Shown here in pieces: positions 307 to 33,000 of a stretch of 43,061 bases of DNA. The stretch lies in NCBI GenBank assembly GCA_945883495.1, contig CAMCXS010000051.1, positions 1-43,061 on the forward strand, in the 5' to 3' direction. A program made the translations under genes and the position numbers. The notes beneath the pieces are model-generated. The model was not told the origin of the DNA and did no database searches. It worked only from the letters and a program-made list of their open reading frames with translations. The stretch is from Akkermansia muciniphila (GTDB taxonomy: Bacteria; Verrucomicrobiota; Verrucomicrobiia; Verrucomicrobiales; DEV007). Numbering within the stretch: the first letter of the stretch is position 1; every line of letters starts with the position of its first letter.

Positions 307-400
307 GAATCAGAGAGGATATTGGTTTTGGTGAACTTGAGGCGCTCACTCACCAAGTGGGCGCCGGCGGACAAGTCTTCCAGCAGTCAAAATCCCCAGT

Positions 401-420
401 CCTCCGCGTCTACGCGTGAG
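401..420 (-). repeat. Dispersed repeat, inverted copy 2
   Basis: Read on the minus strand this is CTCACGCGTAGACGCGGAGG, matching the ends of the element at 281-306. The two form an imperfect inverted pair about 95 bases apart and could fold into a long-loop hairpin downstream of the TolC gene. Confidence 0.5.
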
Positions 421-440
421 CCCAGACCATTCTCGTTTTT

Positions 441-452
441 AGGTTTACCGAG
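441..452 (+). repeat. 12-bp direct repeat, copy 2, over the tolC stop
   Basis: Second copy of AGGTTTACCGAG. Read on the minus strand it supplies the last arginine codon and the TAA stop of the TolC-like gene, so the present C-terminus of that protein lies inside the repeat. Confidence 0.4.
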
Positions 453-1815
453 TAAGCTCGGGGCTTGGCTCCCGGGCGATGGTTCCGACGGCCTGACGGA
501 GCCGGGCGACGGCCACGTTGTAGGTATGCAAAGATTGAACCTCCTCTAACTGCGCGCGGGTGAGTTCCAGGCGGGATTGAAGAATCTCCAGCTGGGTCAG
601 GGCTCCAGCTTCGAACCGATTCTGGGCAAGCCGAAGCGCTTCGCTGGCTTGTTTGACCACGAGCTGGGATGTCTCCAGGATGTCAGAGGCCTCGTCGTAG
701 TCGAAGTATGCCTGCCGGACCTGCCCCTCGATCTCCAGGCGCTGCTGATCTTCCTGTGCCTCGATTTGCTCCAGCCTGGCGTTGGCTTGTTGTACCTGCC
801 CCCGAGTCCGTCCCATGTCGATTAGGGGCACGACCACACGGACGCCAGCGGTAGCGCCGTTGATGTTGTCGGCGGAGTCTCCACTGAAACGCAAACTTTG
901 CGCTCCATACGTGCCAAACATTTCGACCCGAGCCCGGTGGGTCGCTTTGGCGGCGTTAACATCGGACGTAGCGGCGCGGATCTCCTCGGCCAGCTCAGTC
1001 AACTCCGGCCGGTTGGTGAGCCCCTGCAGGAGGAGATCACCCAGCTGCTCGTTCACCTGGGCGTTGGGCCAAGACTGCGTGAGCCGGACCTCATCAGCAT
1101 CGCATCCCTCCGGATATGGCAGACCAATCCCCCTCCGCAACCGATCGATCGCGAGCCGATACTCATTGCGCGCCCGGATGACTGGCGGCTTGGCGTTGGC
1201 CAGCGCAACCTCGGCTTGGAGGACATCAAACTGCGGACGCGCCCCCGCATCAAAACCCGCCTTGGCGGTTTGCAACTGACGCTCCAAGACACCAACCGCA
1301 TCTTCTTGAACCTGGATCCTCTGCCGGGCGAGCAGTCCGTCGAAGTAGTTCCGGCTGGTCTCCAGCAACAAACCATCCACGACGGTTCGCATCCGTGATT
1401 CGGCGGCGGCCACTCGGGCCTTGGCGGATCTGTTGTTCGCAATGCGCGCTCCACCATTGTACAGAACGTGACTGAGCTGAACGTCCACGTTCCAGCCCTG
1501 TTGATCGGCCACCACAATGTTGCCGAACCCTTCGATGCGCCCGCGGCCACTGGCGTCGTAGTTGCTCACTCCATCGAGCCGGGGGAGCCGCTCGGCACGG
1601 GCCACGGTGAGGACGCCCTCCTGTTCTTTGATCTGGGCCCTGACTTGGGAAATCAGCGGACTGTGCCGCAGAGCCAGCACCAGGGCAGTCTCCAGTTCAA
1701 GATCCTTCGGAAGCGTTTCGCTGCTCGTGGAGTCACCATCGGCTGCTGCCCAGAGCGGCCCAATGAGTCCGGGGAAGAGCAACCAACTCAAAATCGTGCG
1801 CGCGAGAGTCGTCAT
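445..1815 (-). CDS. TolC-family outer membrane efflux channel
   Basis: A 456-residue outer membrane factor that would form the exit duct of a tripartite efflux pump. A signal peptide is visible at residues 1-24 (hydrophobic stretch ending LWAAADG). The body shows the two repeated outer-membrane-efflux-protein halves, at about 35-235 and 265-445, rich in long amphipathic helices with heptad-like Ala/Leu/Gln spacing. The conserved segment near the C-terminus reads RFEAGALTQLEILQSRLEL, typical of the family. The length matches the usual 430-490 residues. It lies 7 bases after the RND pump gene and is the last of three genes in the unit. The stop codon falls in a 12-base repeat, so the very C-terminus may have been altered. 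Substrate cannot be told from sequence. Confidence 0.93.
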   Translation of the reverse strand: MTTLARTILSWLLFPGLIGPLWAAADGDSTSSETLPKDLELETALVLALRHSPLISQVRAQIKEQEGVLTVARAERLPRLDGVSNYDASGRGRIEGFGNIVVADQQGWNVDVQLSHVLYNGGARIANNRSAKARVAAAESRMRTVVDGLLLETSRNYFDGLLARQRIQVQEDAVGVLERQLQTAKAGFDAGARPQFDVLQAEVALANAKPPVIRARNEYRLAIDRLRRGIGLPYPEGCDADEVRLTQSWPNAQVNEQLGDLLLQGLTNRPELTELAEEIRAATSDVNAAKATHRARVEMFGTYGAQSLRFSGDSADNINGATAGVRVVVPLIDMGRTRGQVQQANARLEQIEAQEDQQRLEIEGQVRQAYFDYDEASDILETSQLVVKQASEALRLAQNRFEAGALTQLEILQSRLELTRAQLEEVQSLHTYNVAVARLRQAVGTIAREPSPELTR

Positions 1816-14107: not shown

Positions 14108-15109
14108 ATGAAGCCTAAATCCCACCCTGCCGCTATTCCTGCGGTCATCGTCGCCGTCGCCCTGACGCCCCTCCTTGCCTTCTCCCAAACAGCGACCACA
14201 AGCCCGGCCGCAGTCATGGAGATCAACATCGCCGCAAACGGTTACACCTACATCGGACTGCCCGTCTACACTGCCGTCCGCTACCGTGGAGCCCTCACGG
14301 CAGTGTCCGGTTCAACGATCTCGCTCGACGACACCCCCTTCGACGGCAAAAACTTCGGCACAATCGCCATCGGCACGGAGCAATTACCCCAATTCTTCGT
14401 AGAGTTTCTATCAGGCACGGATGAAGGCACCATGATTCCAATTTTGTCGAGCACCGCCTCCTCTCTGACGCTCAGTGAGGACGTCTCTTCATTCGCCTCC
14501 GTTGGGGACCTCATTCAAGTTCGTCGCTTCCACACGTTGAACTCTCTGTTCCCCGACGGCAAGCCCTTGCGCGGAGGAACCTCACAGACCACCGCAGACG
14601 AGGTGATCATTTACGACGCCTCCCGGCAGAAGTCCTTTTCCCACTTCTACTTCACTACGGCCAACGAGTGGAGACAGGGAACAGTCGCGAACGGCAATCG
14701 GCCGATCCTTCCGAACCAAAGCATCTACGTCAACCGCAAAACGGTGGCCACGAAACTTCGAGTCGCAGGGACGGTGAAGCTTGGGCTCACTGGAATTGAT
14801 GTCCTCCCAGGGAACAATCTCGTACCAAACCCTTACCCCGTGGCCTACACCCTGCAGCAGTCCAACCTTTTCACCGGGAACGCCACGACCGGTGTGAAGT
14901 CAGGCACATCAGCGACAAGTGCCGACCAAGTCACCATCTATGGCCCCGGGCTCATCCCGCGTACCTATTTTTATCACAGCGGACTCTCCCAATGGCGAAC
15001 GGGGACGACCCCCTCGGATCAAGCCTTGATTCCCATCGGCGCTTCCATCCTGATCAACCGGCGGTCACCATCCTCACCCTTTACCTGGACGAAAGCCCAG
15101 CCGTTCTAG
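14108..15109 (+). CDS. Secreted protein, possible TIGR02597-like family
   Basis: A 333-residue protein with a signal peptide (AIPAVIVAVALTPLLAFSQ, cleavage near residue 27). It resembles a family known mainly from Verrucomicrobia (TIGR02597, recalled from memory), whose members begin with a short motif on smooth surface strands and contain paired segments. Here two halves repeat the pattern: GGTSQTTADEVIIYD..FSHFYFTTANEWRQG..ILPNQSIYVNRKT (about 158-215) and KSGTSATSADQVTIYG..RTYFYHSGLSQWRTG..LIPIGASILINRRS (about 265-322). Function is unknown. It stands directly upstream of the giant DUF1800 gene but is separated by 170 bases with a possible promoter, so it may be a separate unit. Confidence 0.75.
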   Translation: MKPKSHPAAIPAVIVAVALTPLLAFSQTATTSPAAVMEINIAANGYTYIGLPVYTAVRYRGALTAVSGSTISLDDTPFDGKNFGTIAIGTEQLPQFFVEFLSGTDEGTMIPILSSTASSLTLSEDVSSFASVGDLIQVRRFHTLNSLFPDGKPLRGGTSQTTADEVIIYDASRQKSFSHFYFTTANEWRQGTVANGNRPILPNQSIYVNRKTVATKLRVAGTVKLGLTGIDVLPGNNLVPNPYPVAYTLQQSNLFTGNATTGVKSGTSATSADQVTIYGPGLIPRTYFYHSGLSQWRTGTTPSDQALIPIGASILINRRSPSSPFTWTKAQPF

Positions 15110-15279: not shown

Positions 15280-18200
15280 ATGGGCACGACTCGCCTATTG
15301 TCCTACAGCCCGTCTCCCGCGAGAATTCTTCTCGCGAGCGCCGCTCTCGTTGCGCCATGGATACAATCACTGCCCGCGCAAATCGATCAAGCCGTCACTC
15401 AGCGCATCTGGCAGAATCACTATGGTGTCACCGACGCGCAACTGTATCAGGATGCCGATCCTGCCAACGGCACGAACTCCATCTGGCTCGCGCAGGACGC
15501 GGATCTTGACGGATTGACCAATGGTGCCGAGATTGCGAGTGGGACCAACCCATTCGACAGCACCAGTTTGATCGCCGTCAGCAACATGACGCTTGATCAG
15601 AACTCCGTCGCGATCGAGTTCCCGACGGAAGCGGGCAAGCTGTATCGTTTGGAGTCTAGCGCAAGCCTTACGACGCCAAATTGGACCATCCATTCCCAAT
15701 CAAGTCCGGCGCAAGTCATTGGAGACGGGTCCTCGAAGGTGATCGCGGTCCCCTCTGGAGGTAACACGTTTTACAGGGTCCGCGTTGAGGATGCAGACCA
15801 GGATAGTGATCGCCTAAGCGATTGGGCGGAATTAGCGATTTCACTCAGCCCTCTCACTGCCCAAACCACTCCTGGGGTGAACGACTACTCCTATGTGACC
15901 GAGCAGCTCACGATCCCGAACGTGGTATCCATAGAAGCTGTTCAGTCATTCGCAGCGGAAGATGGCCCCGTTCCTGGGGCATTCACGGTCAGCAGAACCC
16001 GCCGCCTCTTTGCGGATGAGGTTTCCCTTGAACTCTCTGGGACCGCCCAGATGAACGTTGACTATGCGGCCATTCCAACACCGATCATACTTAGCGCCGG
16101 CACGGAATCGGAGTCCGTGGCCGTTAATCCCACATCAGTTGGCGGTGTGGAGGGCAGTGAATCCGTAACGGCGACGATTCTTCCTTCGACGGAACCGGTT
16201 CCTGCATTTTCGGTCGGGGCAAAGGACAGCGCGACAGTCATCATCGAGGATTCCACTGTTCCAGTCGGCACAGGGCTCCTCGCTCGTTACTACGATCACG
16301 CGAACACGAACTATGTGGATGCCGCGAACTTCGGGAGCACGGGCACTTACGTCTTCACCCGTGGAACTCCGACGACAACCGGAAGCATTGTCGTCACCGC
16401 CCCCGCGAATCAGTTCACCGGGCTGCAACAAGGGCACCAGGTCAAATTGACATTCACCTCTGGAAACGCCGCGATCGATAACGCAACGTTTGACCACCAG
16501 AACTATGTTGTCACGGCTGTTAGCGCTACCGCTTTCACCGTAGCCGTCTCTTCGACCACGGCGTTCTCTATCGCAAGCACCAACGGAAATTGTGCCTTCA
16601 GCATTCAGTCCTTCCCGCACCCGCCGGTAATTGAACGTGTGGAGATCCTCAACCACGACTGGGGCTTTGGAACCCCAAACAATGCAACGATCGTGGCGGC
16701 AGCTGGCACCACCGTGACCAATGTCCCGGACAACTATTCCAACACCTTTGAGACCTTCCTGAGCCCAACCACGGCTGGGTCGTATCGCTTCCAGTTGGAT
16801 GCGGATGACCGGGCTCGGGTCCTTCTCGACCTAAACGACGGCAACGGGTTACAAGAGATTCTCGAACACGGCTGGGACGGCGCCACGACTCCTGAGACCA
16901 TTGGGACTTTCAAGATCAGTTCCGCGTTTGCGCTCGCCGTCCCCGCCACACCCGCGAATCGCTACCGGATGCGCATCGAGCATGTCGAGACCACCGGCGC
17001 GGCCCGTTGCCGCCTCCAATGGAGCCGCGATGGCGGAAACTTTTCGAACATCCCGCAGGGTGACCAGTTTACCCACACCCAGGCGTTTACCAGCAATTAC
17101 TCCTATACTCGGACCAACGCCACCACTGGCACCGCGACGATCACGGTTACCGGGCACGGGTTGAATGCCGGTGATCAAGTGGCGCTCGCGTTTTCTAGCG
17201 GCAATCTCTTCACGCCCAACACCTCTGACCTCAACGGCTACAGCGGGACCTATACCGTCCTCGCGTCGCCAGCGCCGACGGCGAACACCTTCACCGTGGC
17301 CATAACGGGCTCGGGTTCTGGTTCGGGCCTCCCGAGCAACGGAACTGGAACTGGCTTTCTGGAGAACCGCCCCTCCAGCACCACCACCGGCGTTTACAAC
17401 AAGGTTTACACCACCACGAATTTCACCCGCACGCCTGCAAGAATCGGGATCGAAAGCGCTGTCACCTCCCAAAGCAACGGCATTTGGGGCGCTGGTTCCC
17501 CCGACGGTTCACTGATCAACCCTGAGACCTTCACCGCACGTTGGACTGGCCAGGTGCAACCACAGTTCACCGAGGAATACACGCTTGTGCTGCACGCGGA
17601 CGACAGCGCCATCTTGCGGATCAATGGCCAGGTTCAGGAACTGAAGACCAATGTCTCGACCGATTCCGGGAACGCCAACTACACTTACGACGCCGCCACC
17701 GGCAACACGACGGTCACTTATCCAAATATGGTGGTGAAGGCGGGCAGCTTCGTCGTCGGCGAGACCGTTAGACTCAACCCCACCTCCGGCAATCTCAGCT
17801 ACAGCTCCGGCTCCACCTACAGTTACGACTCGAGCAACGGCGAAATGGTCATCACGTATTCTGGGATGACAACGATCACACCTGGATCGTTCCTCTCTGG
17901 TCAAACCGTTTTCCTCGATCCCACCAACGGGAATCTATCCAGCCTCGCATCCTTACCCTACACGATCACCGCAGCCACATCCTCCACGTTTACGGTCAAC
18001 GCGGGTGCCGGTCTTTTCGCTACCGGAACCGGAAACATCGACATCTCCGACACGATGGACTTGGTGATTACCCAGGCCACGTCCACCTCGTTCACCGTGA
18101 ACCACGGTGCAGGTAAGCATGCCAACGCGAGCACGGGGAACACGAATATCGAGATCGTCAACAAGCCGCTCAAGGATTGGTCTTCTATGGGCAATGAGCG

Positions 18201-21200
18201 TTATGTTCGGGTTCCTTTCGTCGGAGGAACACGTTACGATATCGAGGTTGAGTATTATGAGAACGGCGGCTATGCGCGCTGCTTCCTTTACTGGCAGAGC
18301 CCGAGCCAGCCCAGGCAGTTCATTCCGGCGGAACGCCTCTATCCCTCCACGGGCACGGTTCAGGCTCCTCCGGCACTCGTCAGCAACACGGAAGCCACCG
18401 CCCTCGTTGGAGGCCCGTTTTCCTACGCGGTTCTTGGCAGCAACGGCGGGACCATCAATCTCAGTGGCCTTCCGCCTGGATTGACCTACAGCAACGGAGT
18501 CATCAGCGGTTCCGCGACCACACCAGGAAATTACCAAATCCTCATCACGATGACCAACGCGGTGGGCACCAGCACCTCGCTGCTCAACTTGCGAGTCGAA
18601 GACACCGGGGGCTCCGCTACCCGGGAGCTCTGGACCGGAATCACCGGCACTGCCATCTCCAGCATCCTCGTTTCCACCACGCCCAACAATTCCGGGACTG
18701 TCAGCTCTCTCGCCGCCCCCAGCAACGCCGCAGATAACTTCGGCGCCCGGATCCGCGGCTACATCACGGCTCCCACCACCGGCAATTACTACTTCTGGCT
18801 CTCCGCGAGCGAGTCGGCGGAATTCTGGCTGTCCAACGATGCCGAGTTGGTGAATGTCTTCAAACGCGCATCGATCACTGGTGGCGGCGACACGCCGCAG
18901 CAATGGTCCTCGGCCGCCAAGTCCCCATGGATGGCCCTGGAACAAGGCAAGCGATATTACTTCGAGATTCTGCATAAATCCAGCACGGGTGTCGATCACC
19001 TGGCACTGGGCTGGTCCAAACCCGGCGAGAGCACCACCTCCCCCACCGAGGTTGTCCCGGGCTACGTCCTCTCTCCCTACGAGGCTCCGTCGGCCGGAAG
19101 CTATGGAGGCACTCTTTACGTCGCCACTCTGCTCCGCCAGAACGGCGCCATTGATCCCCCGGGCAGCACCCTGCGAGGCATCGGCACCGCGACCCTTCGC
19201 ATCAGCGAAGATGAGTCAACCGCTGAGGTGCGCGTCACCTACAGTGGCCTCTCCGGAGGAGCGCTAATGGATGGCCCGGTTGCTGGTCAGGCGGTCGCGG
19301 CCGACGGTACCGCCTCCCCAAATGGTGTCATTGATCCCACTGACTGGCACGTCCATTCGGATCCGTTCCTCGGTAACGAATCTTATATCATCTACGACGG
19401 AGCCGAACCGCTGACCGGCGATGGTCCACAGTTCGCGCCGGACGGTTCATTCCTCTACCACAAATGGAACCTCGCACCCGCGGGCACGCTCGGCGTGAAC
19501 GACATTCGAGAACTCATCAAGCAAGGCAAGGCCTACATCAACCTTCACACCGCATTGAACCCCGCAGGTGAAATCCGGGGGAACTTTACCTTAGCCAACG
19601 GTTCCCGCACATTCTCCCCGCCTCCGCCTCCGCCGACTTGGACCGATGACAGCCACACGGATGCAGGGGCTGCTCGCTTCCTTTCTCAGGCCTCCTTCGG
19701 TGCCAGTCCGGCCGATATCACCGCCCTGAAGAATCTTACCCCCTCAGGCGAAAAGAGCCGCTACGAACTCTGGATCGAGGACCAATTCTCGAAGCCCGCC
19801 AGCCAATCCTTACCCGAGGTTCTCCGCACCCGCCGAGCCGATGCCCAGGGCGGTTCGCAACTCGACGAAACGCTGTTCTTTAACTCGTGGTGGCGGAATT
19901 CGATTTCTGGCCAGGATCAACTGCGCCAGCGCATCGCGTTTGCCCTCAGTCAGATCCACGTCATCTCTGGTCAAGGCCCACTCGACAACCGAGGGGAAGC
20001 TATCGCCTTCTTTTATGACAAGCTCGCGGAGGGAAGCTTCGGGAACTTCCGCGAGATTCTCGAAGCGACCACTCTGACTCCTGCAATGGGTCGATACCTC
20101 GACATGCGGAACAACGACAAGCCGGACCTCGCCAGCGGCCGGATTCCGAATGAGAATTATGCCCGTGAGATCAAGCAACTCTTCTCCGTTGGCCTCTACC
20201 GGGTGTGGCCGGACGGCACCTTGATGCTCAACTCCAACGACCAGCCAATCGACACCTACACTCAACGCGAGATCGTTGGCTATTCCCACGTGTTTACGGG
20301 CTGGACGGATGGATATGACGGCGCCTACCGCACCGGGCTCAATGCACCGGCGAATTGGCTACGTCTCATGCGCGAGGTTCCGGCTCGTCACTTCACCGGG
20401 CAGAAGCGTATCTTGAACAACGAAGTGCTACCGGGCTTGTCCGTCGTGGGCGGGCAACCCTTGGATCCTTTCGCCGTCCATAACAGCACTCACTGGAACC
20501 AGCCAGCGTATCAGCAGCTTGCAGCCCAAGAATTGGAACTTTCCCACGACCAACTTTTCGCTCACCCCAACACTGGCCCATTTATCTGCCGCCAGCTCAT
20601 CCAGCGCATGGTGACCAGCCATCCCTCGCGCGATTATCTCTACCGTGTCGTGAAGGAGTTCAATGACAACGGATCCGGCGTTCGTGGCGACATGCAGGCG
20701 GTGATCAAAGCCATCCTTCTCGATTACGAAGCTCGCAGCACCAACATGATCGCCAATCCGTCTTTTGGAAAGCAACGCGAACCACTTCTCCGCGTCGCCA
20801 TGGCGGGCCGCGCTTTCCGTCCGAAGACCTACGGCGGAACCTACACGCAATCCGGAACCCGTCTCATCACGATTGATACCACCCCGGCCGGAACACCACA
20901 CGGCCTAGCCAACGGGAACAACGTCCTTTTAGAATTCGTGTCCGGCGACGGAGCGATGGCCCCATGGACCGGCCCTTACAGCGTAGTCAGCGCCGTCGAC
21001 GCGGACACCTTCACGGTCAACGCCACGGGCTGGGCCACCGGCACCTACACCATCCCGGCGAACTCCACCACCTGCACCATTTCCATGACCAACCATTGGT
21101 TACAGGTGGGGAATCAGTTCTTCATGGACTTCACCTCGGGTGCAGCGGACGGCACTTCCATCGACAACCAGGTCTACACCGTCTTGACCAACCCGAATCC

Positions 21201-22407
21201 TGCTAACAATGGAGACAACGGAAGTTCGTTCACCTTCAATGTCGTCGGGACCTCCGCGTCCGTGCGCAGCGGCAACTGTATGCTCCCACGCTTTAATCCT
21301 GGAAGCATGACGATCGCGAGTTCCGGTCTGCCGGCGCCCAACGACCGGCGGGTTACAATGCGCACTGAGCAGGACCACCACCTCGCCGTCGGCAATCAAG
21401 TGCAACTCAACGTCTATGCCACCCAGGCCACGCCGCAGCCCATCGACCTGGTGGCCACGGTGGATACCGTCGTAGACCTGAAGACCTGGACGTTCCTCGT
21501 CTCCAGCGCCACCACCGGCTGGAGCAACACGCAGGGGAACAACAGCGTCTACCAGTTCCCGCTCGTTCCACAACCCCTGGCACGCTCTGGCACCATCAAC
21601 TCCCGTTCCAGCACCTACCAAGTCGGCAGCACCGACGGTGACCTCGATCAATCACCGTTGAACGCGGATACTGTATTCAACTTCTTCTTGCCCGACTACA
21701 AATTCCCGGGGCAGCTCGCTTCGGCCGGTGTCACCACTCCGGAATTCCAAATCACGGCGGAGACCGGTGTAATCCGGCAGACAAACTATCTTTATAATGG
21801 CGTCTTCAACCCCAACACCACCAATGGCTACAGCAGCTTCAATGGGGGAAATAACGCCGTAGCGCTGGACTATTCTCAATGGATCATTGGGAACGCCACA
21901 ACGAACCTCGGCCTCGGTGCCGCCGTCAACGTGAACCTGCCCTGGACGCACAACGAGAACCTCAGTCGTCTTATCGATCACCTAAGTGTGCTCTTGACCG
22001 CCGATCAGTTGCCGGCCGGGGCCAAAACAATCATCCGCGATCTTGTCTCCCTGCCGATCAGCTCGATCTCCACGGGGAATCCTTGCCGGGTCACGACCAT
22101 CCGCCCGCATGGCTACAGCACAGGACAAAGCGTATGCATCAGCGGCGTAACGACGGGCACCTTCTCGCCGACTGTAAATGACACTTCTTCCACGCGCACA
22201 ATTACCGTGACTGGACCCGATACCTTCACAGTCACTGGCGTAAACTGTACCGCTGCGCCGAATTCGACTGGTCTCGCCAACGCGCACGTCTCCCAAATCA
22301 TTTACAACCAAGGTTCCAGTAACCCAACGGCGACGCAACGCCGCGACCGGTTCCGGGCCATTCTCCACCTGATTCTCACCAGCCCAGATTTCATCATTCA
22401 GCGCTGA
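15280..22407 (+). CDS. Giant secreted DUF1800 protein with PA14, CHRD and nested beta modules
   Basis: A 2375-residue protein. Order seen: signal-like helix (about 14-34); calcium-type D-rich repeats (DADLDGLTNGAEI near 74; DADQDSDRLSDWAE); Calx-beta-like domain (215-326); PA14 (330-600); PA14 (704-1025); Ig-like domain with GLPPGLTYSNGVISG (1033-1108); PA14-like (1112-1267); CHRD domain (1274-1442) ending NLHTALNPAGEIRGNF; proline linker; DUF1800 domain (1464-2375) starting ARFLSQASFGA and ending LTSPDFIIQR. About eight small beta modules (GHGL..GDQV..F.SGN..YTV..TFTV type) are inserted, several of them inside the PA14 and DUF1800 domains. The DUF1501 gene follows 8 bases later, the usual partner. 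Enzymatic function of DUF1800 is not known. The protein is likely exported and surface-exposed. The start has no clear ribosome site. Confidence 0.9.
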   Translation: MGTTRLLSYSPSPARILLASAALVAPWIQSLPAQIDQAVTQRIWQNHYGVTDAQLYQDADPANGTNSIWLAQDADLDGLTNGAEIASGTNPFDSTSLIAVSNMTLDQNSVAIEFPTEAGKLYRLESSASLTTPNWTIHSQSSPAQVIGDGSSKVIAVPSGGNTFYRVRVEDADQDSDRLSDWAELAISLSPLTAQTTPGVNDYSYVTEQLTIPNVVSIEAVQSFAAEDGPVPGAFTVSRTRRLFADEVSLELSGTAQMNVDYAAIPTPIILSAGTESESVAVNPTSVGGVEGSESVTATILPSTEPVPAFSVGAKDSATVIIEDSTVPVGTGLLARYYDHANTNYVDAANFGSTGTYVFTRGTPTTTGSIVVTAPANQFTGLQQGHQVKLTFTSGNAAIDNATFDHQNYVVTAVSATAFTVAVSSTTAFSIASTNGNCAFSIQSFPHPPVIERVEILNHDWGFGTPNNATIVAAAGTTVTNVPDNYSNTFETFLSPTTAGSYRFQLDADDRARVLLDLNDGNGLQEILEHGWDGATTPETIGTFKISSAFALAVPATPANRYRMRIEHVETTGAARCRLQWSRDGGNFSNIPQGDQFTHTQAFTSNYSYTRTNATTGTATITVTGHGLNAGDQVALAFSSGNLFTPNTSDLNGYSGTYTVLASPAPTANTFTVAITGSGSGSGLPSNGTGTGFLENRPSSTTTGVYNKVYTTTNFTRTPARIGIESAVTSQSNGIWGAGSPDGSLINPETFTARWTGQVQPQFTEEYTLVLHADDSAILRINGQVQELKTNVSTDSGNANYTYDAATGNTTVTYPNMVVKAGSFVVGETVRLNPTSGNLSYSSGSTYSYDSSNGEMVITYSGMTTITPGSFLSGQTVFLDPTNGNLSSLASLPYTITAATSSTFTVNAGAGLFATGTGNIDISDTMDLVITQATSTSFTVNHGAGKHANASTGNTNIEIVNKPLKDWSSMGNERYVRVPFVGGTRYDIEVEYYENGGYARCFLYWQSPSQPRQFIPAERLYPSTGTVQAPPALVSNTEATALVGGPFSYAVLGSNGGTINLSGLPPGLTYSNGVISGSATTPGNYQILITMTNAVGTSTSLLNLRVEDTGGSATRELWTGITGTAISSILVSTTPNNSGTVSSLAAPSNAADNFGARIRGYITAPTTGNYYFWLSASESAEFWLSNDAELVNVFKRASITGGGDTPQQWSSAAKSPWMALEQGKRYYFEILHKSSTGVDHLALGWSKPGESTTSPTEVVPGYVLSPYEAPSAGSYGGTLYVATLLRQNGAIDPPGSTLRGIGTATLRISEDESTAEVRVTYSGLSGGALMDGPVAGQAVAADGTASPNGVIDPTDWHVHSDPFLGNESYIIYDGAEPLTGDGPQFAPDGSFLYHKWNLAPAGTLGVNDIRELIKQGKAYINLHTALNPAGEIRGNFTLANGSRTFSPPPPPPTWTDDSHTDAGAARFLSQASFGASPADITALKNLTPSGEKSRYELWIEDQFSKPASQSLPEVLRTRRADAQGGSQLDETLFFNSWWRNSISGQDQLRQRIAFALSQIHVISGQGPLDNRGEAIAFFYDKLAEGSFGNFREILEATTLTPAMGRYLDMRNNDKPDLASGRIPNENYAREIKQLFSVGLYRVWPDGTLMLNSNDQPIDTYTQREIVGYSHVFTGWTDGYDGAYRTGLNAPANWLRLMREVPARHFTGQKRILNNEVLPGLSVVGGQPLDPFAVHNSTHWNQPAYQQLAAQELELSHDQLFAHPNTGPFICRQLIQRMVTSHPSRDYLYRVVKEFNDNGSGVRGDMQAVIKAILLDYEARSTNMIANPSFGKQREPLLRVAMAGRAFRPKTYGGTYTQSGTRLITIDTTPAGTPHGLANGNNVLLEFVSGDGAMAPWTGPYSVVSAVDADTFTVNATGWATGTYTIPANSTTCTISMTNHWLQVGNQFFMDFTSGAADGTSIDNQVYTVLTNPNPANNGDNGSSFTFNVVGTSASVRSGNCMLPRFNPGSMTIASSGLPAPNDRRVTMRTEQDHHLAVGNQVQLNVYATQATPQPIDLVATVDTVVDLKTWTFLVSSATTGWSNTQGNNSVYQFPLVPQPLARSGTINSRSSTYQVGSTDGDLDQSPLNADTVFNFFLPDYKFPGQLASAGVTTPEFQITAETGVIRQTNYLYNGVFNPNTTNGYSSFNGGNNAVALDYSQWIIGNATTNLGLGAAVNVNLPWTHNENLSRLIDHLSVLLTADQLPAGAKTIIRDLVSLPISSISTGNPCRVTTIRPHGYSTGQSVCISGVTTGTFSPTVNDTSSTRTITVTGPDTFTVTGVNCTAAPNSTGLANAHVSQIIYNQGSSNPTATQRRDRFRAILHLILTSPDFIIQR
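16345..16614 (+). other. Inserted FCCH-like beta module 1, inside PA14 domain 1
   Basis: Residues about 356-445 of the giant protein: SIVVTAPANQFTGLQQGHQV, then LTFTSGN, YVVTAVSATAFTVAV. It lies between the PA14 start (GLLARYYD) and its continuation (PPVIERVEILNHDWGFGTP), so it interrupts that domain near its first strands. Confidence 0.6.
17095..17370 (+). other. Inserted FCCH-like beta module 2, between PA14 domains 1 and 2
   Basis: Residues about 606-697: TATITVTGHGLNAGDQVALA, FSSGN, YTVLASP, NTFTVAITG. This is the clearest copy of the module, with GHGL starting at residue 625, and it sets the pattern used to find the others. Confidence 0.65.
17680..18165 (+). repeat. Two modules, one apparently nested in the other, inside PA14 domain 2
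   Basis: Residues about 801-962 split PA14 domain 2 between ADDSAILRINGQVQELK and SMGNERYVRVPFVGGTRYDI. The order of half-repeats is first half, first half, second half, second half. NYTYDAATGNTTVTYP..GETVRLNPTSGNLS is followed by YSYDSSNGEMVITYSG..GQTVFLDPTNGNLS, then ITAATSSTFTVNAGAG, then ITQATSTSFTVNHGAG. This order fits one module inserted into another. Confidence 0.6.
20840..21585 (+). other. About 250-residue insert of three modules inside the DUF1800 domain
   Basis: Residues about 1854-2102, between AGRAFRPKTYGG and SRSSTYQVGSTDGDL of the DUF1800 domain. Three successive module-like units are visible: TPHGLANGNNVLLEFVSGDG..DTFTVNATG; NHWLQVGNQFFMDFTSGAA..SSFTFNVVG; and DHHLAVGNQVQLNVYA..KTWTFLVSSATTG. 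Confidence 0.6.
22072..22320 (+). other. FCCH-like module inserted just before the DUF1800 C-terminus
   Basis: Residues about 2265-2347: RPHGYSTGQSVCISGVTTG..TITVTGPDTFTVTGVNC. It lies between IIRDLVSLPISSI and the conserved final segment RDRFRAILHLILTSPDFIIQ. Of all copies this is the closest to the E1-FCCH-like repeats seen in bacterial and phage proteins. Confidence 0.6.
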
Positions 22408-22415
22408 ACGCCCCC

Positions 22416-23987
22416 ATGCAAACGAAGCAAGTTCCCAATATCATCACGCGTCGCAGCATGCTTTGGCGCGCCGCGATGCTCGGCGGTGCCTTCTCGACGA
22501 TCCGCGATCTGAAGCTCATCAACTCGCTGGTCGCGGCAGAGACCCCAAACGACTACAAAGCCCTCGTTTGTGTGTTCCTCGCTGGCGGCAACGACGCGAA
22601 CAATTGGATCGTTCCCACGGATGAAACGACTTATGGGGAGTACGCCGCCACTCGCGGGAACCTTGTCCTTCCCCAATCGTCGCTGCTCCCCCTCCGCACC
22701 GGACCGAGCGAGTCGGATCCCGCCTACACCTACCAGGGCAGAACTTACGGATTTCACCCCAGTTGCGCCAACCTCCAGACCCTCTTTGGCGAGCGCAAAT
22801 TGGCGATCGTCCAAAACGTGGGCACCTTGGTCCGGCCCACGACCAAAGCCCAATACAATTCTGGACTCGCCGCCTACCGGCCGCCGCAACTGTTTTCCCA
22901 CAGTGACCAAGTCACTCAATGGCAGACCTCCATCCCGGATCAGCCTCCCGCCACCGGTTGGGGCGGACGAATTGCGGATATCTACAGCTCGACCGCCAAT
23001 CCCGACGGCAAAATCTCCATGTCCGTCTCCTTGAACGGGGCGAACACGCTGCAAATCGGCAACCTCATCTCCCAGTATCACGTTTCCACCTCCGGCGCCC
23101 TCACTCTCACAGGAGGTACTGGAGGTCTGATGGGTGCGACGGGTGTCAGGCAGAAGGCGGCGCAAGGGATTCTTGACCTAAATCACCCCAATCTCCAGCG
23201 CCAAGCTTATGCCGGGGTGCTCGACAACGCCATGTTCACTGGCGATCTCCTCAACAGCAACATCGCCGCTTACCTCGACCCGACGGATTCTCCGGCAAGC
23301 TACACCGCCCAGAGCGCGACCGCTCCCTGGCGCTGGGACACCGGACTATCCGGTATCTACACCCCCGCCGTCAAAGCCGACGGCCTCGGCGGCTTTCCGA
23401 ACTCCACCCTAGGAATTCAGATGAAGATGATCGCCCGCCTCATCGCCGCCGCGGGCCCCAGCGGGTTTAACATGAAGCGGCAGATCTTCTTCTGTTCCCT
23501 CGGCGGGTTTGATACCCACACCGCTCAAGTGGATGGCACTGGGTTCACCAATAATCCAACAAACCCAGCGGGCACTCACTACGGGCTTCTCCGTCAAGTC
23601 AGCGAAGCCATGTTCGCGTTCCAACGCGCCATGGAGCAACTCGGCCTTTCCGACAAGGTCACCGCGTTCACCGCTTCCGACTTCTCCCGCACCTTCCCTT
23701 CGAACAGCCAGGGCAGCGATCACGGTTGGGGCAGCCATCACATTATGGTAGGTGGCGGGGTCGACGGCGGAAAGATCTTTGGCAAACTCCAATCCCTGGC
23801 CATCAGTGGGCCCGACGATACCGGCACCGGGCGGTGGATCCCCACCCTTTCCGTCGATGAGCACACGGCAACGCTGGCCAAATGGTATGGTTTGAATCAA
23901 AACGAGATCGGAGCCGTTCTCCCGAATCTCTCCCGCTTCAACACCTCGCACGCCAGCAACTATATCGGTTTCATGAAGCCGGCCTGA
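22416..23987 (+). CDS. DUF1501 protein, partner of the DUF1800 protein
   Basis: A 523-residue protein of the DUF1501 family, whose fold is thought to be related to sulfatases/alkaline phosphatases. The N-terminus has a twin-arginine-like export signal (TRRSMLWRAAMLGG, then INSLVAAE). Family features include ALVCVFLAGGNDANNWIVP near 50-65, a GGFDTHTAQ segment that would supply an acidic/histidine site, VTAFTASDFSRTFPSNSQGS and DHGWGSHHIMVGGGV. DUF1800 and DUF1501 genes are adjacent in many genomes, and here the gap is 8 bases, so cotranscription is likely. Its biochemical role is not established. Candidates are hydrolysis of sulfate or phosphate esters on surface polymers, or assembly of the giant partner. 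Confidence 0.9.
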   Translation: MQTKQVPNIITRRSMLWRAAMLGGAFSTIRDLKLINSLVAAETPNDYKALVCVFLAGGNDANNWIVPTDETTYGEYAATRGNLVLPQSSLLPLRTGPSESDPAYTYQGRTYGFHPSCANLQTLFGERKLAIVQNVGTLVRPTTKAQYNSGLAAYRPPQLFSHSDQVTQWQTSIPDQPPATGWGGRIADIYSSTANPDGKISMSVSLNGANTLQIGNLISQYHVSTSGALTLTGGTGGLMGATGVRQKAAQGILDLNHPNLQRQAYAGVLDNAMFTGDLLNSNIAAYLDPTDSPASYTAQSATAPWRWDTGLSGIYTPAVKADGLGGFPNSTLGIQMKMIARLIAAAGPSGFNMKRQIFFCSLGGFDTHTAQVDGTGFTNNPTNPAGTHYGLLRQVSEAMFAFQRAMEQLGLSDKVTAFTASDFSRTFPSNSQGSDHGWGSHHIMVGGGVDGGKIFGKLQSLAISGPDDTGTGRWIPTLSVDEHTATLAKWYGLNQNEIGAVLPNLSRFNTSHASNYIGFMKPA

Positions 23988-25990: not shown

Positions 25991-27727
25991 TCATCGGCCA
26001 GTCAAATAGCGCGCATCGCTCAGCGTCTTGAGAAAGGCGATGACCTCCGCCTTCTCACTGGCACTGAGGTGAAGGCCTCCATCCGGATGTTTCGCCAAGT
26101 TCGGATCGAGAGTATCCGTCCGCTGCACTCCCTCGCTGTAGTGATCCAGCACTTCTTCCAGGGTGGCGAATCTGCCGTCGTGCATGTAGGGGGCGGTCAA
26201 GGCGATGTTCCGCAAGCTCGGCGTCGCGAACGTCCCCCGATCTAGGCGGGAACCAGTCACCCGGTAGCGCCCTAAGTCCGCTTCATCGATTGGCAGTCCA
26301 TTGTTGCGAAACTGGTGATCGGTAAAGAGCGCCCCGCCATGGCAATGAAAACAATCCGCGCCCAAAATCCCCAGGCGCGGATCTCGCTCCGTCATGAACA
26401 GCCGGAAACCGCGCTCCTCCTGCTCGGTCAGCTTGCCCTCCCCGCGCATGGCACGATCAAACTTCGAATCATTGGCCGTCAGGGTGAGAAGAAAACTCTC
26501 CAGAGCTAGGCCAATCCGCTCCGCCGTCATTTCGCTTGTCCCAAAAGCCTTCTCAAACGAGTCCATATAACCGCCAGCCTCTTCTAGCTTCCGGAGGACA
26601 CTCTCCAAGGTCTCATTCATCTCCAATGGATCCTGGATCGGCATCAATGCCTGCTGCCGCAGCGACGGGGCTCTTCCGTCCCAAAAGAACTCACGCTTCC
26701 ACGCCAAATTGAACAACGGCATGCCGTGACGCGTGCCGAGCTTTCCCTCAACCCCCAAACTGAAGCGTCGTGGATCCGCAAAGGCGGTGACCTGAGGATG
26801 GCAACTCGCGCAGGAGATGCTCTCATCCCGGGACAGCATTCTCTCATGAAACAAGCGGCGGCCCAACGCAATCGCCGCATCGTCGGAATCCTGTGACTGC
26901 GCCGAAGCCGGGAATGCACTCTCCCACGGACTCGCTCCGGGGAGCACCGCACGACGCATCCCGACCTTCGATCCAGTGTCGCCAAGATTCCCTCCGGCAT
27001 CTCTCCAGGCAAAAGCCCCCGGCAAATTCGCCACCAGTGCTTCGGCCACCGGATCCCCAGGTTGGGAGTGCGTCGAAGAGCCATCCTTCGCGATTGAGAT
27101 GGGGCGGGCACCACGGAGAATCTTACCCAGATCGAACTCGATCCCGACCACCGCTGGCGAACCCGGAACAACCGCCAAACTTCCATTCAAAACGATCTCC
27201 GTCCGATTCTCAGTCCGGCCTAAGTGGTAGGCAAAACCGGACGACGCTACGCCCTCGGCTTGGTTCCAAAAGCCCTCAAACGCAAGAAAAATGAAGCCCC
27301 CCTGCCAGCTCCAGTGCAAACCATTGAGATTCGGATCCAGCGGGTGTCCGGCTGGGATGCGGGCCGGGTCGGTGGCGTTGGTCTCAGCATCCAGTCCGAT
27401 CGCAAAGCGGATCTGCGTGTAGGTGCCGACGGGCGCCTCCCCCAGGGAAGCCTCGGTTCGACTCTTCCCAGCATCCAGCCAAGCGACTCCGCCTTCCAAC
27501 TCTTGCCAGCCGCCATCCGCGCGACACAGAGCGAAGTCGCTGAGCAGGTAACTCGCCCTCGTGACGGAGTACCGCTCCCCCGAATCCGTCCGGTAATCCA
27601 TCTCCCCGGGGCGAAAGGGAGAACCCACTACGCCATGCTCCACCCGCAAGGTCAACGGCTCAGCCCTCAGCCCCCCAGAGCCGATCCAGCCACCGCATGA
27701 GATCAAGACTAGCCGCAGGAACCACAC
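25991..27727 (-). CDS. MbnP-like domain fused to MauG/MbnH-like di-heme enzyme
   Basis: A 578-residue exported protein. Residues 1-22 form a signal peptide. Residues about 24-215 match the MbnP pattern: SYLLSDFALCR, PVGTYTQIRFAIGLD, then HWSWQGGFIFLAFEG with Trp139 and Trp141, and YHLG. Residues about 280-578 match the bacterial cytochrome c peroxidase/MauG family: RRLFHERMLSRDESISCASC with heme 1 at Cys306-Cys309-His310, heme 2 at CFHCH (459-463), and TPSLRNIALTAPYMHDGRF. The position usually filled by methionine in peroxidases is here Tyr530 (LDHYSEG), as in MauG/MbnH. In known pairs MbnH converts a tryptophan of MbnP to kynurenine and MbnP binds copper. The GTG start at 27727 has AGGAGG upstream. 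It is convergent with the metal-binding gene. Confidence 0.82.
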   Translation of the reverse strand: MWFLRLVLISCGGWIGSGGLRAEPLTLRVEHGVVGSPFRPGEMDYRTDSGERYSVTRASYLLSDFALCRADGGWQELEGGVAWLDAGKSRTEASLGEAPVGTYTQIRFAIGLDAETNATDPARIPAGHPLDPNLNGLHWSWQGGFIFLAFEGFWNQAEGVASSGFAYHLGRTENRTEIVLNGSLAVVPGSPAVVGIEFDLGKILRGARPISIAKDGSSTHSQPGDPVAEALVANLPGAFAWRDAGGNLGDTGSKVGMRRAVLPGASPWESAFPASAQSQDSDDAAIALGRRLFHERMLSRDESISCASCHPQVTAFADPRRFSLGVEGKLGTRHGMPLFNLAWKREFFWDGRAPSLRQQALMPIQDPLEMNETLESVLRKLEEAGGYMDSFEKAFGTSEMTAERIGLALESFLLTLTANDSKFDRAMRGEGKLTEQEERGFRLFMTERDPRLGILGADCFHCHGGALFTDHQFRNNGLPIDEADLGRYRVTGSRLDRGTFATPSLRNIALTAPYMHDGRFATLEEVLDHYSEGVQRTDTLDPNLAKHPDGGLHLSASEKAEVIAFLKTLSDARYLTGR

Positions 27728-28397: not shown

Positions 28398-29764
28398 CGC
28401 CCAACGAACGCATTGACCTGGCGCTGGAAGACCGGCTGCCGCTTGAGGACCTGGAGGAGTTTCAACGCGATGTGCTGGGCAATCCCGCCTTGCGGGCCGC
28501 CTACGTCGAGCGTGCTTGGCTGCACGGTCAGCTGCATGCGGAGCGCGACCTGCTGCGCACTCTCGTGGAGCAACCAGCTGCTCCTGTGATTCGCTTCCCT
28601 TCTGTCTGGAGCCACTGGGGAGCCGCGGCTGCGGCGGCTGTCCTTGGCCTCTGCGTGGGACTTCTGATGCTGCGAGACGCTCCCGTGGCCGTGCTCGCGG
28701 AGGCAGAAGGCTGCAAGTGGGCCGGCTCGGAGCTTCCCACCGCTGAAGGCTCGGAACTGGGCGCGGGCACGCTCGCTCTGGCAGAAGGCATGGCCACCCT
28801 GCGCTTCGCGAACGGTGCCACCCTTACCCTGGAAGCCCCCACCACCCTGCAAATCATCAACCGCATGCATTGCCGACTCATCGACGGATCGCTCGTCGCT
28901 GATGTGCCTGAAACCGCCCATGGGTTTACGGTCGATACCCCGGAGATGAAAGTGGTCGATTTGGGGACCCGTTTCGGTGTGACGTCGAGCGGAGTCGGCA
29001 GTTCCCACGTCTTGGTCTTCGAAGGAGAGGTGGATGTCAAAACCGGCTCCAGCCAGAAACGATTGACCACAGGCAAAGCCCTGCTCCTGGGCCAGTCTCC
29101 TCCCCAATTTAAAGATCAAGAAGTGGTGCGTGCTCCGGCCAGGCTTGTGGAGGACGATGGCTGGACCGTTCTTTCCACCTCGGCCGGCCGTGGCAAGGAT
29201 GCCTACGTCCGAAGAGGCGATGCGGACAAAGCGACCGGGAGCCACCCGTTGATTTTGGTGAAGCAGACGGAGTTAGTCGAAGAGAACCAACGGCGCGCCT
29301 ACCTCACGTTTGATCTGGCCTCATTCGCCTCTCAGCTTCGGGGTCTTGACGACGCCGAACTGGTGCTCGACGTCGAGTCCAGCGGCCTCGGCTTCTCCGC
29401 GCTCGTCCCGGACTCGCGTTTTGCGGTTTACGGGGTGATCGCAGACGCTCTCGACAGCTGGGACGAATCCGCCGTCCGCTGGAACAACGCGCCGGCTGCC
29501 AGCAACTCCGGACTGGAGCCCACCTTGGTTCGCCGCCTCGGAACGTTCACCATCCGCCGAGGCGCCGCACCGGCCCAAGTCAATTTTTCCACGCCAGATC
29601 TCCTGGAATTCATCCGCAACGACAAGAATCAACTCGTCACCCTGGTGTTGTTGCGGGAGACCGGGGAGAGCGAGGTGCAAGGCTTGGTCCACGCCTTTGC
29701 CGCCAAGGAGCACCCCACAGCTCGCCCGCCTGCACTACGGTTAAAGTTTCGTCAAAACCAATGA
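28394..29764 (+). CDS. FecR-like membrane protein with C-terminal DNRLRE domain
   Basis: A 456-residue single-pass protein. The ATG overlaps the sigma factor stop (ATGA); a longer in-frame start at 28358 would be inside the sigma gene. A cytoplasmic helical part (1-70) is followed by one membrane helix (about 77-97). The FecR-like beta domain (about 105-235) contains MATLRFANGATLTLEAPTTL, GFTVDTPEMKVVDLGTRFGV and VLVFEGEVDV. The C-terminal part (about 255-456) has DAYVRRGDADKATG, YLTFDLASF, LDSWDESAVRWNNAPA and the final LRLKFRQNQ. This fits the DNRLRE (CBM96-like) domain, found in surface and carbohydrate-binding proteins. I infer a sensor whose outer part may recognise a polymer and pass the signal to the sigma factor. 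Confidence 0.85.
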   Translation: MTPNERIDLALEDRLPLEDLEEFQRDVLGNPALRAAYVERAWLHGQLHAERDLLRTLVEQPAAPVIRFPSVWSHWGAAAAAAVLGLCVGLLMLRDAPVAVLAEAEGCKWAGSELPTAEGSELGAGTLALAEGMATLRFANGATLTLEAPTTLQIINRMHCRLIDGSLVADVPETAHGFTVDTPEMKVVDLGTRFGVTSSGVGSSHVLVFEGEVDVKTGSSQKRLTTGKALLLGQSPPQFKDQEVVRAPARLVEDDGWTVLSTSAGRGKDAYVRRGDADKATGSHPLILVKQTELVEENQRRAYLTFDLASFASQLRGLDDAELVLDVESSGLGFSALVPDSRFAVYGVIADALDSWDESAVRWNNAPAASNSGLEPTLVRRLGTFTIRRGAAPAQVNFSTPDLLEFIRNDKNQLVTLVLLRETGESEVQGLVHAFAAKEHPTARPPALRLKFRQNQ

Positions 29765-32700
29765 AAAAGCCCTCTCTTTTCTTATGGCTGTTCGCGGTCA
29801 CCATTTCCCAGGCGGCCCCAGATCGTGAGGCGATCGCTTTCTTCGAAAAAGAAGTCCGGCCCGTCTTGGCGGAGCATTGCTTCGAGTGTCACGGCCCAGA
29901 GAAGAAGCGCGGTGGACTGCGCTTGGATTTTCATGAAGCACTTCTTTCCGGAGGAGACAGCGGCCCAGCGCTTGTTTCAGGCAAACCTGACGAATCGCTT
30001 CTCATCACCGCCGTCCGTCGCACCGAGTCTGACCTGGAGATGCCCCCGAAAAAGGCGCTTCCGGCCGCCGCCGTGGCTGCGTTGGAGAAGTGGGTGGCCA
30101 TGGGAGCTCCTTGGCCGGACTCTGGCGCGCCACGTCCAGCTGTGAGCAAAGATCGCTTTACGGATCAAGAGCGCGCTTGGTGGGCCATCCAGCCTGTGCA
30201 GAACCCAGTTCCGCCGGATGCCAACAGCCCCTGGGTGCGCAATGAGATCGATCAGTTTGTCCTCGCTGGACTGCAGAAGGCTGGCCTAAATCCTGCGCCC
30301 GAAGCGGACCGCATCGAATTGCTCCGGCGCGCCACGTATGACCTGACGGGGCTGCCGCCGACACCAGCACAGATCGAAGCGTTTTTAGCCGACACGCGGC
30401 CAGATGCGTGGGAGCGCCTCATCGATTCCTTGCTCGCCTCGCCGCAATACGGAGAACGCTGGGCCCAACACTGGCTCGACGTCGTCCGCTGGGCGGAAAG
30501 CGACGGGTATCGCCAGGATGCCTATCGGCCCCAAGCGTGGCCTTACCGGGACTACGTCATCGGCAGTCTCAACGCCGACAAACCCTACGACCTCTTCGTC
30601 AAAGAACAGCTCGCCGGCGACGAGATCGATCGTGACAATCCTGATGTCCTTATCGGCACGGCTTTCCTGCGCAATGGGATCTACGAATACAACCAGCGGG
30701 ACGCTCGATTTCAGTGGGATTTGATCGTGAACGAACTCACAAGCGTCACTTCGGAAGCGTTCTTGGGACTTGGCCTCGGTTGCGCTCAGTGCCACGATCA
30801 CAAGTTTGACCCGCTTTTACAGAAGGATTATTACGCGTTACAAGCCTTCCTTGCGCCCGTGAGCTGGCGTTTTGACCTGCCGCTCGCCACCCCCGTACAG
30901 CAAGAGGCCTACGCGGAGGCGTTGCAAAAATGGGACGCGGCCACCACGGAAATCCGTGCTGGCATCGATGCCATCCTGGAGCACCGCATTCTCAAGGCGC
31001 AGGACGCAAATCGAAAAATGTTCCCCGAGGACATCCAAGCTCTCATCGCCAAGCCAAAGCAGCAACGCACCGCTTTGGAGCAGCAGTTGGTGGAGCTCGT
31101 CGAAGTCCAGACCCGCTACGAGCGGGAGCGCTTCGATGAACGATCCATCAAGGGCGAAGAGGCGGAGAAGCTGAAGACACTCCGGGCTGAACTGGCCAAG
31201 TTTGACCATCTGAAGCCCAAACCGCTCCCCACCGCCTTCGTGGCCACCGATGTCGGACCGCAAGCGCCCGAAGTCCTTCTCAAGAACCGACGCGGCAGCA
31301 CGGCGATCGAACCAGGCTTTCCGTCCATTCTCAACGCAGGGACCCCAGAAATTCTCCCGACCCGGAGCGATTCTACAGGCCGCCGTCTTGCCCTGGCCAA
31401 TTGGATCGCCCGAACGGACAATCCGCTCTCCACACGGGTCATAACCAACCGGATTTGGCAGCACCATTTCGGCACCGGATTGGTATCGACGCCCAACGAC
31501 TTTGGAACGCTCGGAGAAGCCCCGTCGCATCCGGAACTACTGGACTTCCTCACGACCCGCTTTGTCGCGGGCGGCTGGAAGATGAAGTCCCTGCATCGCC
31601 TGATCCTGACCTCGGCGACCTATCGGCAAACCGCCCGCCGTGAACCCGGCCAACGCGAACTGGTCGCCGATCCATTCAATCGGTTGTTCTGGCGTTTCCC
31701 GCCCCAACGTCTCGACGCCGAACAGATCCGCGACACGTTACTTGTGGCCAGTGGCGAGTTGATCAGCGGCGGACTCCAAAGCTCCGTCGATGGCGCCACT
31801 CCGCGTCGCAGCATCTACGTGCGCAAGCTCCGCAACACCCCGGACCCAGTGCTTGCCGCATTTGACCTTCCGCTCGGCTTTAGTTCCAGTCCGACGCGAC
31901 CCGCCACCACCACTCCGCTGCAAGCATTGCTGCTCGCCAATGGAGAGTGGCCCCTGCAACGGGCTCGCGCCATGAGCCAGGGCCTCCTCAAAACGACCCC
32001 GGAGAATCCAGCAGGCGCGATCCGACGGGCCTACCAGGCACTCTTTTCCCGTGAGCCAAGTCAAACAGAGGCGCAACATGCGCTCAACTACCTGACCAAG
32101 GAAACCACGCTGGCCAAGGGCCAAGCCGAAACCGCTGAGCCCTATCCCGGGGAAACCGGACTTCGGCCCGCCAGCCAGAACTTCGCGAAAGCGGCTGTTC
32201 CAGGATTGGGAACTCACGCCCTCTGGTTGCAACCCGGAAGCCGGTTTGAGCGACTCGAAGCCTCGCTCGCGGACGCCGGGGACCATTTCACGATCGAGGC
32301 CGTGGTCCAGCTCGATGGCGTTTATCCCGATGCCTCGGTCCGGACTTTGGCGTCACGTTGGAACGGAAGCCCGCTTTCGCCCGGTTGGACGCTGGGCGTG
32401 ACCGGCGCGAAGTCGAAGTATTCAGCGAACACCGTGATTGTCCAACTCACTGGAGAAGATGACCAAGCCAACACCGTTTACGAGGTCGTTTCCTCCGGTT
32501 TGTCGATCCCCGTCCGCAAGCCGGTCTATCTCGCCGCGGAGATCCACACCCCGCGCGTTCCCATGCCTGGTGCCAGCCAGACCGGCACCGTCACCTTCCA
32601 CCTGCGTGATTTGTCCCAACCTGGCGCCCCTCTTACCTCAGTCACGGTGGAGCACGCCGTGATTTCGCCGCCCCACACCCCATCCACACGTTTCATCGTC

Positions 32701-32991: not shown

Positions 32992-33000
32992 CCCACTGCC

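Follow-up and report, generated by a model that had tools for sequence, protein, structure and literature searches.

A single gene of a bacterium belonging to the Verrucomicrobiota, whose nearest named relative is Prosthecobacter, encodes a giant protein with about eight small beta modules scattered along its length. This locus raises the question of whether such segments are ordinary parts of their host domains or inserted units and, if inserted, how they came to occupy so many places. The window (the whole analyzed stretch of 43,061 nucleotides) contains the host gene at 15280..22407 (+), which is one unbroken frame of 2375 aa. Pfam detected PA14, CHRD and DUF1800 in the protein, with TSP3 and E1_FCCH below cut-off. 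The protein is a member of both DUF1800 (PF08811; 203.6 bits vs. a cut-off of 26.1) and PA14 (PF07691; 107.9 bits in four stretches vs. a cut-off of 24), and an N-terminal Sec-type signal sequence read by eye indicates that it is probably secreted. A DUF1501 gene lies directly downstream (22416..23987, +; Pfam), DUF1800 and DUF1501 genes being known neighbours (PMC5122149).

A TIGR02597 family protein is encoded just upstream of the giant gene (14108-15109). Further along, a PSCyt1/PSCyt2/PSD1 gene followed by a second DUF1501 gene occupies 29761-34425, so that two DUF1501 genes are present in the window. One protein encoded at 25991-27727 (-) matches both MbnP and a MauG-type di-haem peroxidase.

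The preliminary description of this DNA had located eight copies of a recurring beta unit in the protein, all of which were confirmed as homologous modules of about 80 aa. We have set the limits of modules M1 to M8 on the basis of seven aligned orthologues and run hhalign on every pair of modules, including a module M9 from two relatives. Each of them was linked to at least one other module at ≥88%; not all pairs were linked (M3 vs. M5-M8, for instance, gave ≤14%). Of the four rows in the M3 profile used here, two were natural and two were joined halves. Against the modules, six segments from host parts of this protein scored ≤7% (61% was obtained once, between two host segments), and column-shuffled modules, which served as control, did not exceed 1.7%. 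The unit had been described by the pattern GHGL-x-x-G-...; it does recur, but its motif is looser than proposed, the literal GHGL being found in M2 only.

The modules are low in lysine and glutamate and high in threonine. Identity between the window protein and its relative L054 was 43% for M1, 62% for M2 and 83% for M7, compared to 83% for the DUF1800 core and 37% for the host N-terminus. Divergence between relatives is greater for most modules than for the DUF1800 core, but some host parts have diverged as much. A search of the own genome (96% complete) with the module profile gave eight matches at E ≤4.3e-5, all within this ORF, and no match elsewhere at E ≤0.1 (the next best had E 0.18). 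When a module HMM (E <0.01) was run on 102 DUF1800 proteins, domains were found in 11 and in none of the other 91, a count that is partly so by construction, five of the 11 having supplied modules for the HMM.

We have then placed the modules relative to the host domains, all features of the gene being on the + strand. As had been proposed, the sites fall within other folded domains: seven of the eight modules are inside PA14 or DUF1800, and M2 separates PA14-1 from PA14-2. The N-terminal strand of PA14-1 (residues 328-355, 16261..16344), recognized by alignment with the uninterrupted PA14 of relatives, is upstream of M1 (residues 356-446, 16345..16617), and the PA14-1 remainder (residues 447-600, 16618..17079; Pfam, boundary set by eye) comes after it. 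M2 (residues 606-700, 17095..17379), defined like M1 by alignment, hhalign and profile, precedes the first part of PA14-2 (residues 709-797, 17404..17670), which is separated by M3 and M4 from the second part (residues 962-1028, 18163..18363). PA14-3 (residues 1140-1255, 18697..19044; Pfam) had no match to the module profile inside it, and the CHRD domain (residues 1293-1435, 19156..19584; Pfam) follows.

The empty counterpart of the PA14-1 site is provided by the sequence of the relative L057, in the alignment with uninterrupted PA14 domains; the window PA14-1 searched alone had no solved relative at E up to 1. PA14-2 matched the solved RsgI3 PA14 (6qe7) as two pieces, residues 735-785 with chain residues 31-80 and residues 967-1027 with chain residues 85-146. 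There are 181 window residues where the solved structure has four, whereas the uninterrupted PA14 of L057 gave a gap-free match to a solved PA14 (chain residues 13-143). The AlphaFold model of the PA14 part was poor (6 sequences, mean pLDDT of 54, with most module stretches scoring above the rest), and the placement of M1-M4 is thus based on sequence. In a Foldseek search with this model, the top entry was the RsgI3 PA14 (E 3.0e-4), and E1 enzymes appeared with E-values of 0.015 or worse.

The region of residues 801-962 had correctly been assigned two copies, but the nesting had been missed. These copies are not in tandem: M4 (residues 845-923, 17812..18048) is enclosed in M3, whose N-half (residues 798-844, 17671..17811) and C-half (residues 924-961, 18049..18162) lie in the PA14-2 loop (alignment, hhalign, profile and rejoining test). 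A single continuous module occupies this site in L035, L037, L203m9729 and L222. In the rejoining test, both outer pieces were joined and scored against host-tail controls masked for modules, with a profile made without M4, M9 and the joined M3 of nested proteins. The rejoined halves beat 500/500 host tails in seven of ten proteins, the window protein included, and 499, 499 and 495 in the other three. In an earlier run with unmasked controls, 47/500 controls were equal to or above the window protein, and for six three-level proteins with an incomplete outer half 145 to 450 of the 500 were equal or better.

The length of the PA14-2 loop changes stepwise over the 21 proteins having both flanking motifs: 50 residues in L216, 143-147 in four proteins, 226-235 in four and 312-330 in twelve. 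This loop holds zero to three modules among relatives, in steps of about 90 aa. The third level consists of an M8-type module inside M4 (L199, L204 and L206). These three copies group together (99/97) while their hosts are not one clade on the core tree, meaning that loss or exchange must also have contributed. The module number at this loop underwent at least six changes over 22 proteins (20 from the loop-length count plus L055 and L194 from HMM hits), and much of the variation at this site may read more easily as repeated loss.

The DUF1800 part (residues 1455-2375) was modeled by AlphaFold from 61 sequences with a mean pLDDT of 82.9 and a pTM of 0.80. In this model, the helical core is broken by the all-beta M5-M7 block (loop A) and then by M8 (loop B). 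The core up to loop A comprises residues 1466-1851 (19675..20832; Pfam and AlphaFold). Loop A contains M5 (residues 1852-1919, 20833..21036), M6 (residues 1920-2005, 21037..21294) and M7 (residues 2006-2095, 21295..21564), all three delimited by hhalign, profile and AlphaFold, and M5 also by alignment; it appears as an all-beta stretch (model positions 398-655) between helices 381-391 and 664-668. The middle helical part (residues 2113-2258, 21616..22053; AlphaFold) has a conserved TVFNFF motif and is followed by M8 in loop B (residues 2259-2341, 22054..22302; Pfam, hhalign, profile and AlphaFold) and by the end of DUF1800 with its last helices (residues 2342-2375, 22303..22404; alignment and AlphaFold). 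The strands of loop B (806-864) lie between helix 792-802 and the last long helix (897-912), the model also having a short low-confidence helix at 875-880. With the DUF1800 model, Foldseek matched no solved structure at E ≤0.001, and its best rows followed the beta modules.

The anchor motifs around loop A are 40-78 residues apart in insert-free DUF1800 proteins, those in which a motif was not found being left out, vs. 301 in the window protein. A DUF1800 paralogue from the same genome (G000:C103, row L048), with 2253 aa and repeated matches to the PA14 part, has 48 residues at loop A and no module match. We have also considered a split of M5 around M6 and M7, which was suggested by a structural range of 393..657 with about 72-77 aligned residues. 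Rejoining of the last strand brought no gain, either with unmasked controls (mean rank of about 101 of 200, 29 proteins) or with masked ones (mean fraction 0.49, 21 proteins, as for random tails), and this candidate split was not adopted.

Regarding the module fold, the likeness to E1-FCCH repeats put forward in the preliminary description was supported on M8 by Pfam E1_FCCH (PF16190) at E 3.3e-6, yet with 27.5 bits the window protein stays below the curated cut-off of 29.5. Among five other hosts of related genomes, L150, L154 and L157 pass this cut-off and L148 and L153 fail it. At E 1e-4, the Pfam model detected 5/288 genomes of the phylum, the window's genome not being among them. The M8 model superposed on the UBA1 FCCH with a Z of 7.4 and an rmsd of 2.4 over 74 aligned residues, a Z below 8 possibly reflecting a common arrangement; the FCCH matches in general had a Z of 7 to 8, the level that the tool terms common. 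The structure list of M6 was headed by five endosialidase entries, and its match to the endosialidase barrel 3ju4 (Z 9.1, rmsd 1.9, 73 residues, 23% identity), obtained with a predicted model, is slightly above the common level. The window protein does not reach the End_beta_barrel cut-off (PF12195; 13.1 vs. 35 bits). When 18 module sequences were searched at E up to 0.1, five matched End_beta_barrel (best 1.6e-4) and four E1_FCCH. The endosialidase barrel, which had not been named before, fits at least as well as E1-FCCH. M7 resembled riboflavin synthase (Z 8.2) as well as lumazine protein, reductases and F1-ATPase (Z 6 to 7.6), so the barrel likeness may partly be a common arrangement.

Predicted viral proteins gave 48 structure matches at E ≤0.001, many of them to uncharacterised proteins. 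The named ones were largely phage tail, fibre, baseplate and structural proteins, and the best match carries the annotation of a phage DUF1800 protein. A tblastn search of M8 against phages yielded five weak matches (E 0.3 to 0.5) to baseplate-J-like and hypothetical proteins, and the window protein had no PHROGs match below E 0.27. In related genomes, FCCH-like modules are also present in proteins with sortilin/BNR, lamin-tail and CotH domains.

To describe the variation among relatives, we have used the module profile at E 0.001, which matched 19/114 relatives, and at E 1e-6, which matched at least 60 of 386 genomes of the order. Forty further regions were added, chosen for holding module matches. 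Three loci judged to be duplicates, frames below 1500 aa and frames without DUF1800 or module were dropped, leaving 49 proteins and 11 outgroup rows. These 49 proteins were recovered as one clade (96/89) when a tree was built from the DUF1800 core, a region lying outside loops A and B. Module matches in loop A were found in 48/49 of this larger set, where occupancy is biased upwards because most added members were chosen for carrying modules; L221 is the exception, its frame being broken and four modules lying in the second part. A fairer figure comes from the first clade: its 11 members, collected for their similarity either overall or in DUF1800, all have loop A occupied. Loop B is occupied in 21/58 rows (three changes) and a third loop, C, in 4/60 (one change), the latter in L200, L201, L205 and L210, which also have extra M8-type modules in loop A. 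Three loops of the DUF1800 fold hence accept whole domains. G398 has three DUF1800 genes bearing modules.

The M8-type copies amount to 43 in 24 proteins and are distributed over loop B, loop A, loop C, the N-terminal sites and the inside of M4, where the label "Bloop" used for the count follows a crude rule that takes in the loop A copies of L200, L201, L205 and L210. No N-terminal module match was obtained in eleven rows located below or between module-rich branches (L056, L057, L212, L217-L219 and L223-L227); the modules missing from L220 and L221 were not counted as absences because their frames are broken. Automatic labels of the N-terminal sites were doubtful for L216 (S2, with sisters S1), L200, L206, L215, L203m9729 and L222. 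Given these labels and the splitting of M3 hits into halves, the change counts for S1, S2 and S3 were set aside.

In the sister clade (L039-L044, 6 rows, 100/99), loop A is occupied by an insert of another kind. The inserts of five of the six scored ≤1% against all eight modules by hhalign. We have scanned four sister-clade proteins against PHROGs, and the insert matched phage head decoration in L043 (2.1e-11, insert residues 1191-1390), L040 (3.1e-7) and L039 (0.0028), and a tail fibre in L042 (3.9e-5). Since PHROG matches also occur elsewhere in these proteins, such as a tail protein at L043 372-459 (3.6e-8), the insert match alone does not prove a phage origin. L040 and L041 have another long insert at loop B, the place of M8 in the window protein, which looks jelly-roll-like by eye.

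The modules are homologous, interrupt host domains, include one lodged inside another and vary in number and place among relatives. The best explanation, which we regard as quite likely, is the in-frame insertion of barrels of the E1-FCCH/phage-endosialidase type into a probably secreted multi-domain protein, with later copying within the gene. The ancestor shared by this clade would have received a block of modules in loop A of DUF1800. Subsequent copies, at least in part from the same gene, would have arisen by duplication and insertion into other loops, namely those of PA14-1 and PA14-2, loops B and C of DUF1800 and the modules themselves, with clean losses taking place repeatedly alongside the gains. 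Insertion would be tolerated because the module folds on its own, and across the relatives at least six sites (PA14-1, PA14-2, loops A, B and C, and M3 itself) agree with the idea of a module that tolerates or favours insertion into loops. Within-gene copying is favoured by DNA traces, by the fact that this clade's M3, M4 and M9 group together (100/100) and by the confinement of the modules to one gene in their own genome. The traces are old: nine weak DNA self-matches were found over 49 genes, six of them between modules. Traces of this kind come from L194, L200 (N-terminal vs. loop-C module, 76% over 109 nt), L054 (M3 vs. M4 N-halves, 70.5% over 139 nt) and three other genes. No near-identical copies and no recent DNA-level duplication were seen in the 49 genes, so that this part of the explanation relies on old and weak DNA similarity. 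An outside origin of some copies is possible.

If the segments were instead regular components of the PA14 and DUF1800 folds in this lineage, one would expect what the first tree shows, a loop A filled in each of its 11 clade members, and at this loop the site is indeed shared; at most other sites occupancy varies. This interpretation is hardly credible, given the all-beta units that break a helical fold in the AlphaFold model, the insert-free relatives, among them the paralogue L048 with 48 instead of 301 residues, the gap-free fit of the L057 PA14 to a solved PA14, and the homology of the segments to each other across unrelated hosts. A mobile DNA element jumping in frame into coding sequence, for which the palindromic elements of Rickettsia are a precedent, would be compatible with in-frame copies at differing sites and with a module inside a module. 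The confinement of all own-genome matches at E ≤4.3e-5 to this ORF (the next at 0.18), the presence of only weak direct and inverted repeats within the gene and the strong sequence divergence of the copies make such an element very improbable.

Pure loss from a module-rich ancestor also deserves consideration, as the third nested module of PA14-2 looks lost several times on the core tree. We nevertheless find it improbable that deletion produced the whole pattern: the eleven rows without N-terminal module match lie below or between module-rich groups, M8-type modules sit at sites that differ from lineage to lineage, including inside M4, and loop C is occupied in only 4/60 rows with one change. 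Somewhat unlikely, in our view, is that the insertions are neutral decoration, a functionless ratchet allowed by fold tolerance. Module number does differ between close relatives, and most modules differ more than the DUF1800 core between the window protein and L054 (M7 being an exception, and some host parts such as the N-terminus differing as much); against this, nearly all relatives have kept an intact frame (those of L220 and L221 are interrupted, possibly an assembly effect), and the sister clade has another virion-like insert in the same loop.

The insertion and within-gene copying that we prefer can be compared with known systems. M6 shares the fold of the K1F and phi92 endosialidase beta-barrel (End_beta_barrel), which is inserted in the catalytic propeller, and M8 resembles the FCCH of ubiquitin E1 (E1_FCCH), which likewise interrupts another domain, in motif and possibly in fold. 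The hosts are different, a phage tailspike in the first case and PA14 and DUF1800 here; unlike E1, the window protein has no E1 adenylation domain detected by the Pfam scan at E up to 1, and its E1_FCCH score is below the cut-off. The clostridial RsgI3 PA14 (6qe7, 6qdi), the closest solved relatives of the host PA14 by sequence, are without inserted modules.

Closer in behaviour are the HABAS domains of the RNA polymerase beta' subunit (insert Si3) and the BEAN domains, described as inserted at several places (PMC11515920); as in our case, small domains occur at several places of one protein in different lineages. HABAS insertion is reported to be recursive, mostly ancient and of unclear mechanism (PMC11515920). 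Copies inserted into copies of the same domain are found here too, as judged from sequence, in another host and with a fold set apart by description only (HABAS is a four-stranded sheet with a GD-box motif). In contrast to the mostly ancient HABAS insertions, number and place vary here among species of one order. A general survey describes nested insertions of up to six levels (PMC13114784). Self-insertion of a domain family is already known, and the present case differs in its host, in its fold as described and in its variation within one order; among the openly available papers searched, no title or abstract start concerned these modules.

As to function, PA14 is counted among carbohydrate-binding modules in a study of Verrucomicrobia (PMC5615132), and the endosialidase barrel is described as glycan-binding (PMC12632334). 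In the phage tailspike Gp49, an inserted six-stranded barrel shapes the substrate groove (PMC6966330), a beta-barrel inside another fold that resembles our modules in its arrangement, and barrels inserted in phage depolymerases contribute to glycan binding (PMC12632334, PMC6966330). By analogy, PA14 carbohydrate binding and the depolymerase barrels suggest, tentatively, that the modules might broaden or mould a face of the PA14/DUF1800 protein that binds polysaccharides or surfaces.

With the balance even between yes and no, a broader picture can be proposed, in which one domain family would behave as a gene-internal mobile insert, spreading among the loops of unrelated folds and entering copies of itself to a depth of three levels (PA14 > M3 > M4 > M8-type in L199, L204 and L206), with the sister clade filling the same loop with a phage-virion-like domain. 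DUF1800/PA14 would then serve as a scaffold whose loops can be used repeatedly as landing sites by surface modules of phage origin. As module numbers of zero, one, two and three are present at one loop and empty sites are kept, junctions, donors, gain and loss can be compared directly, and the family hints at phage tail-type barrels as a source of in-frame surface decorations.
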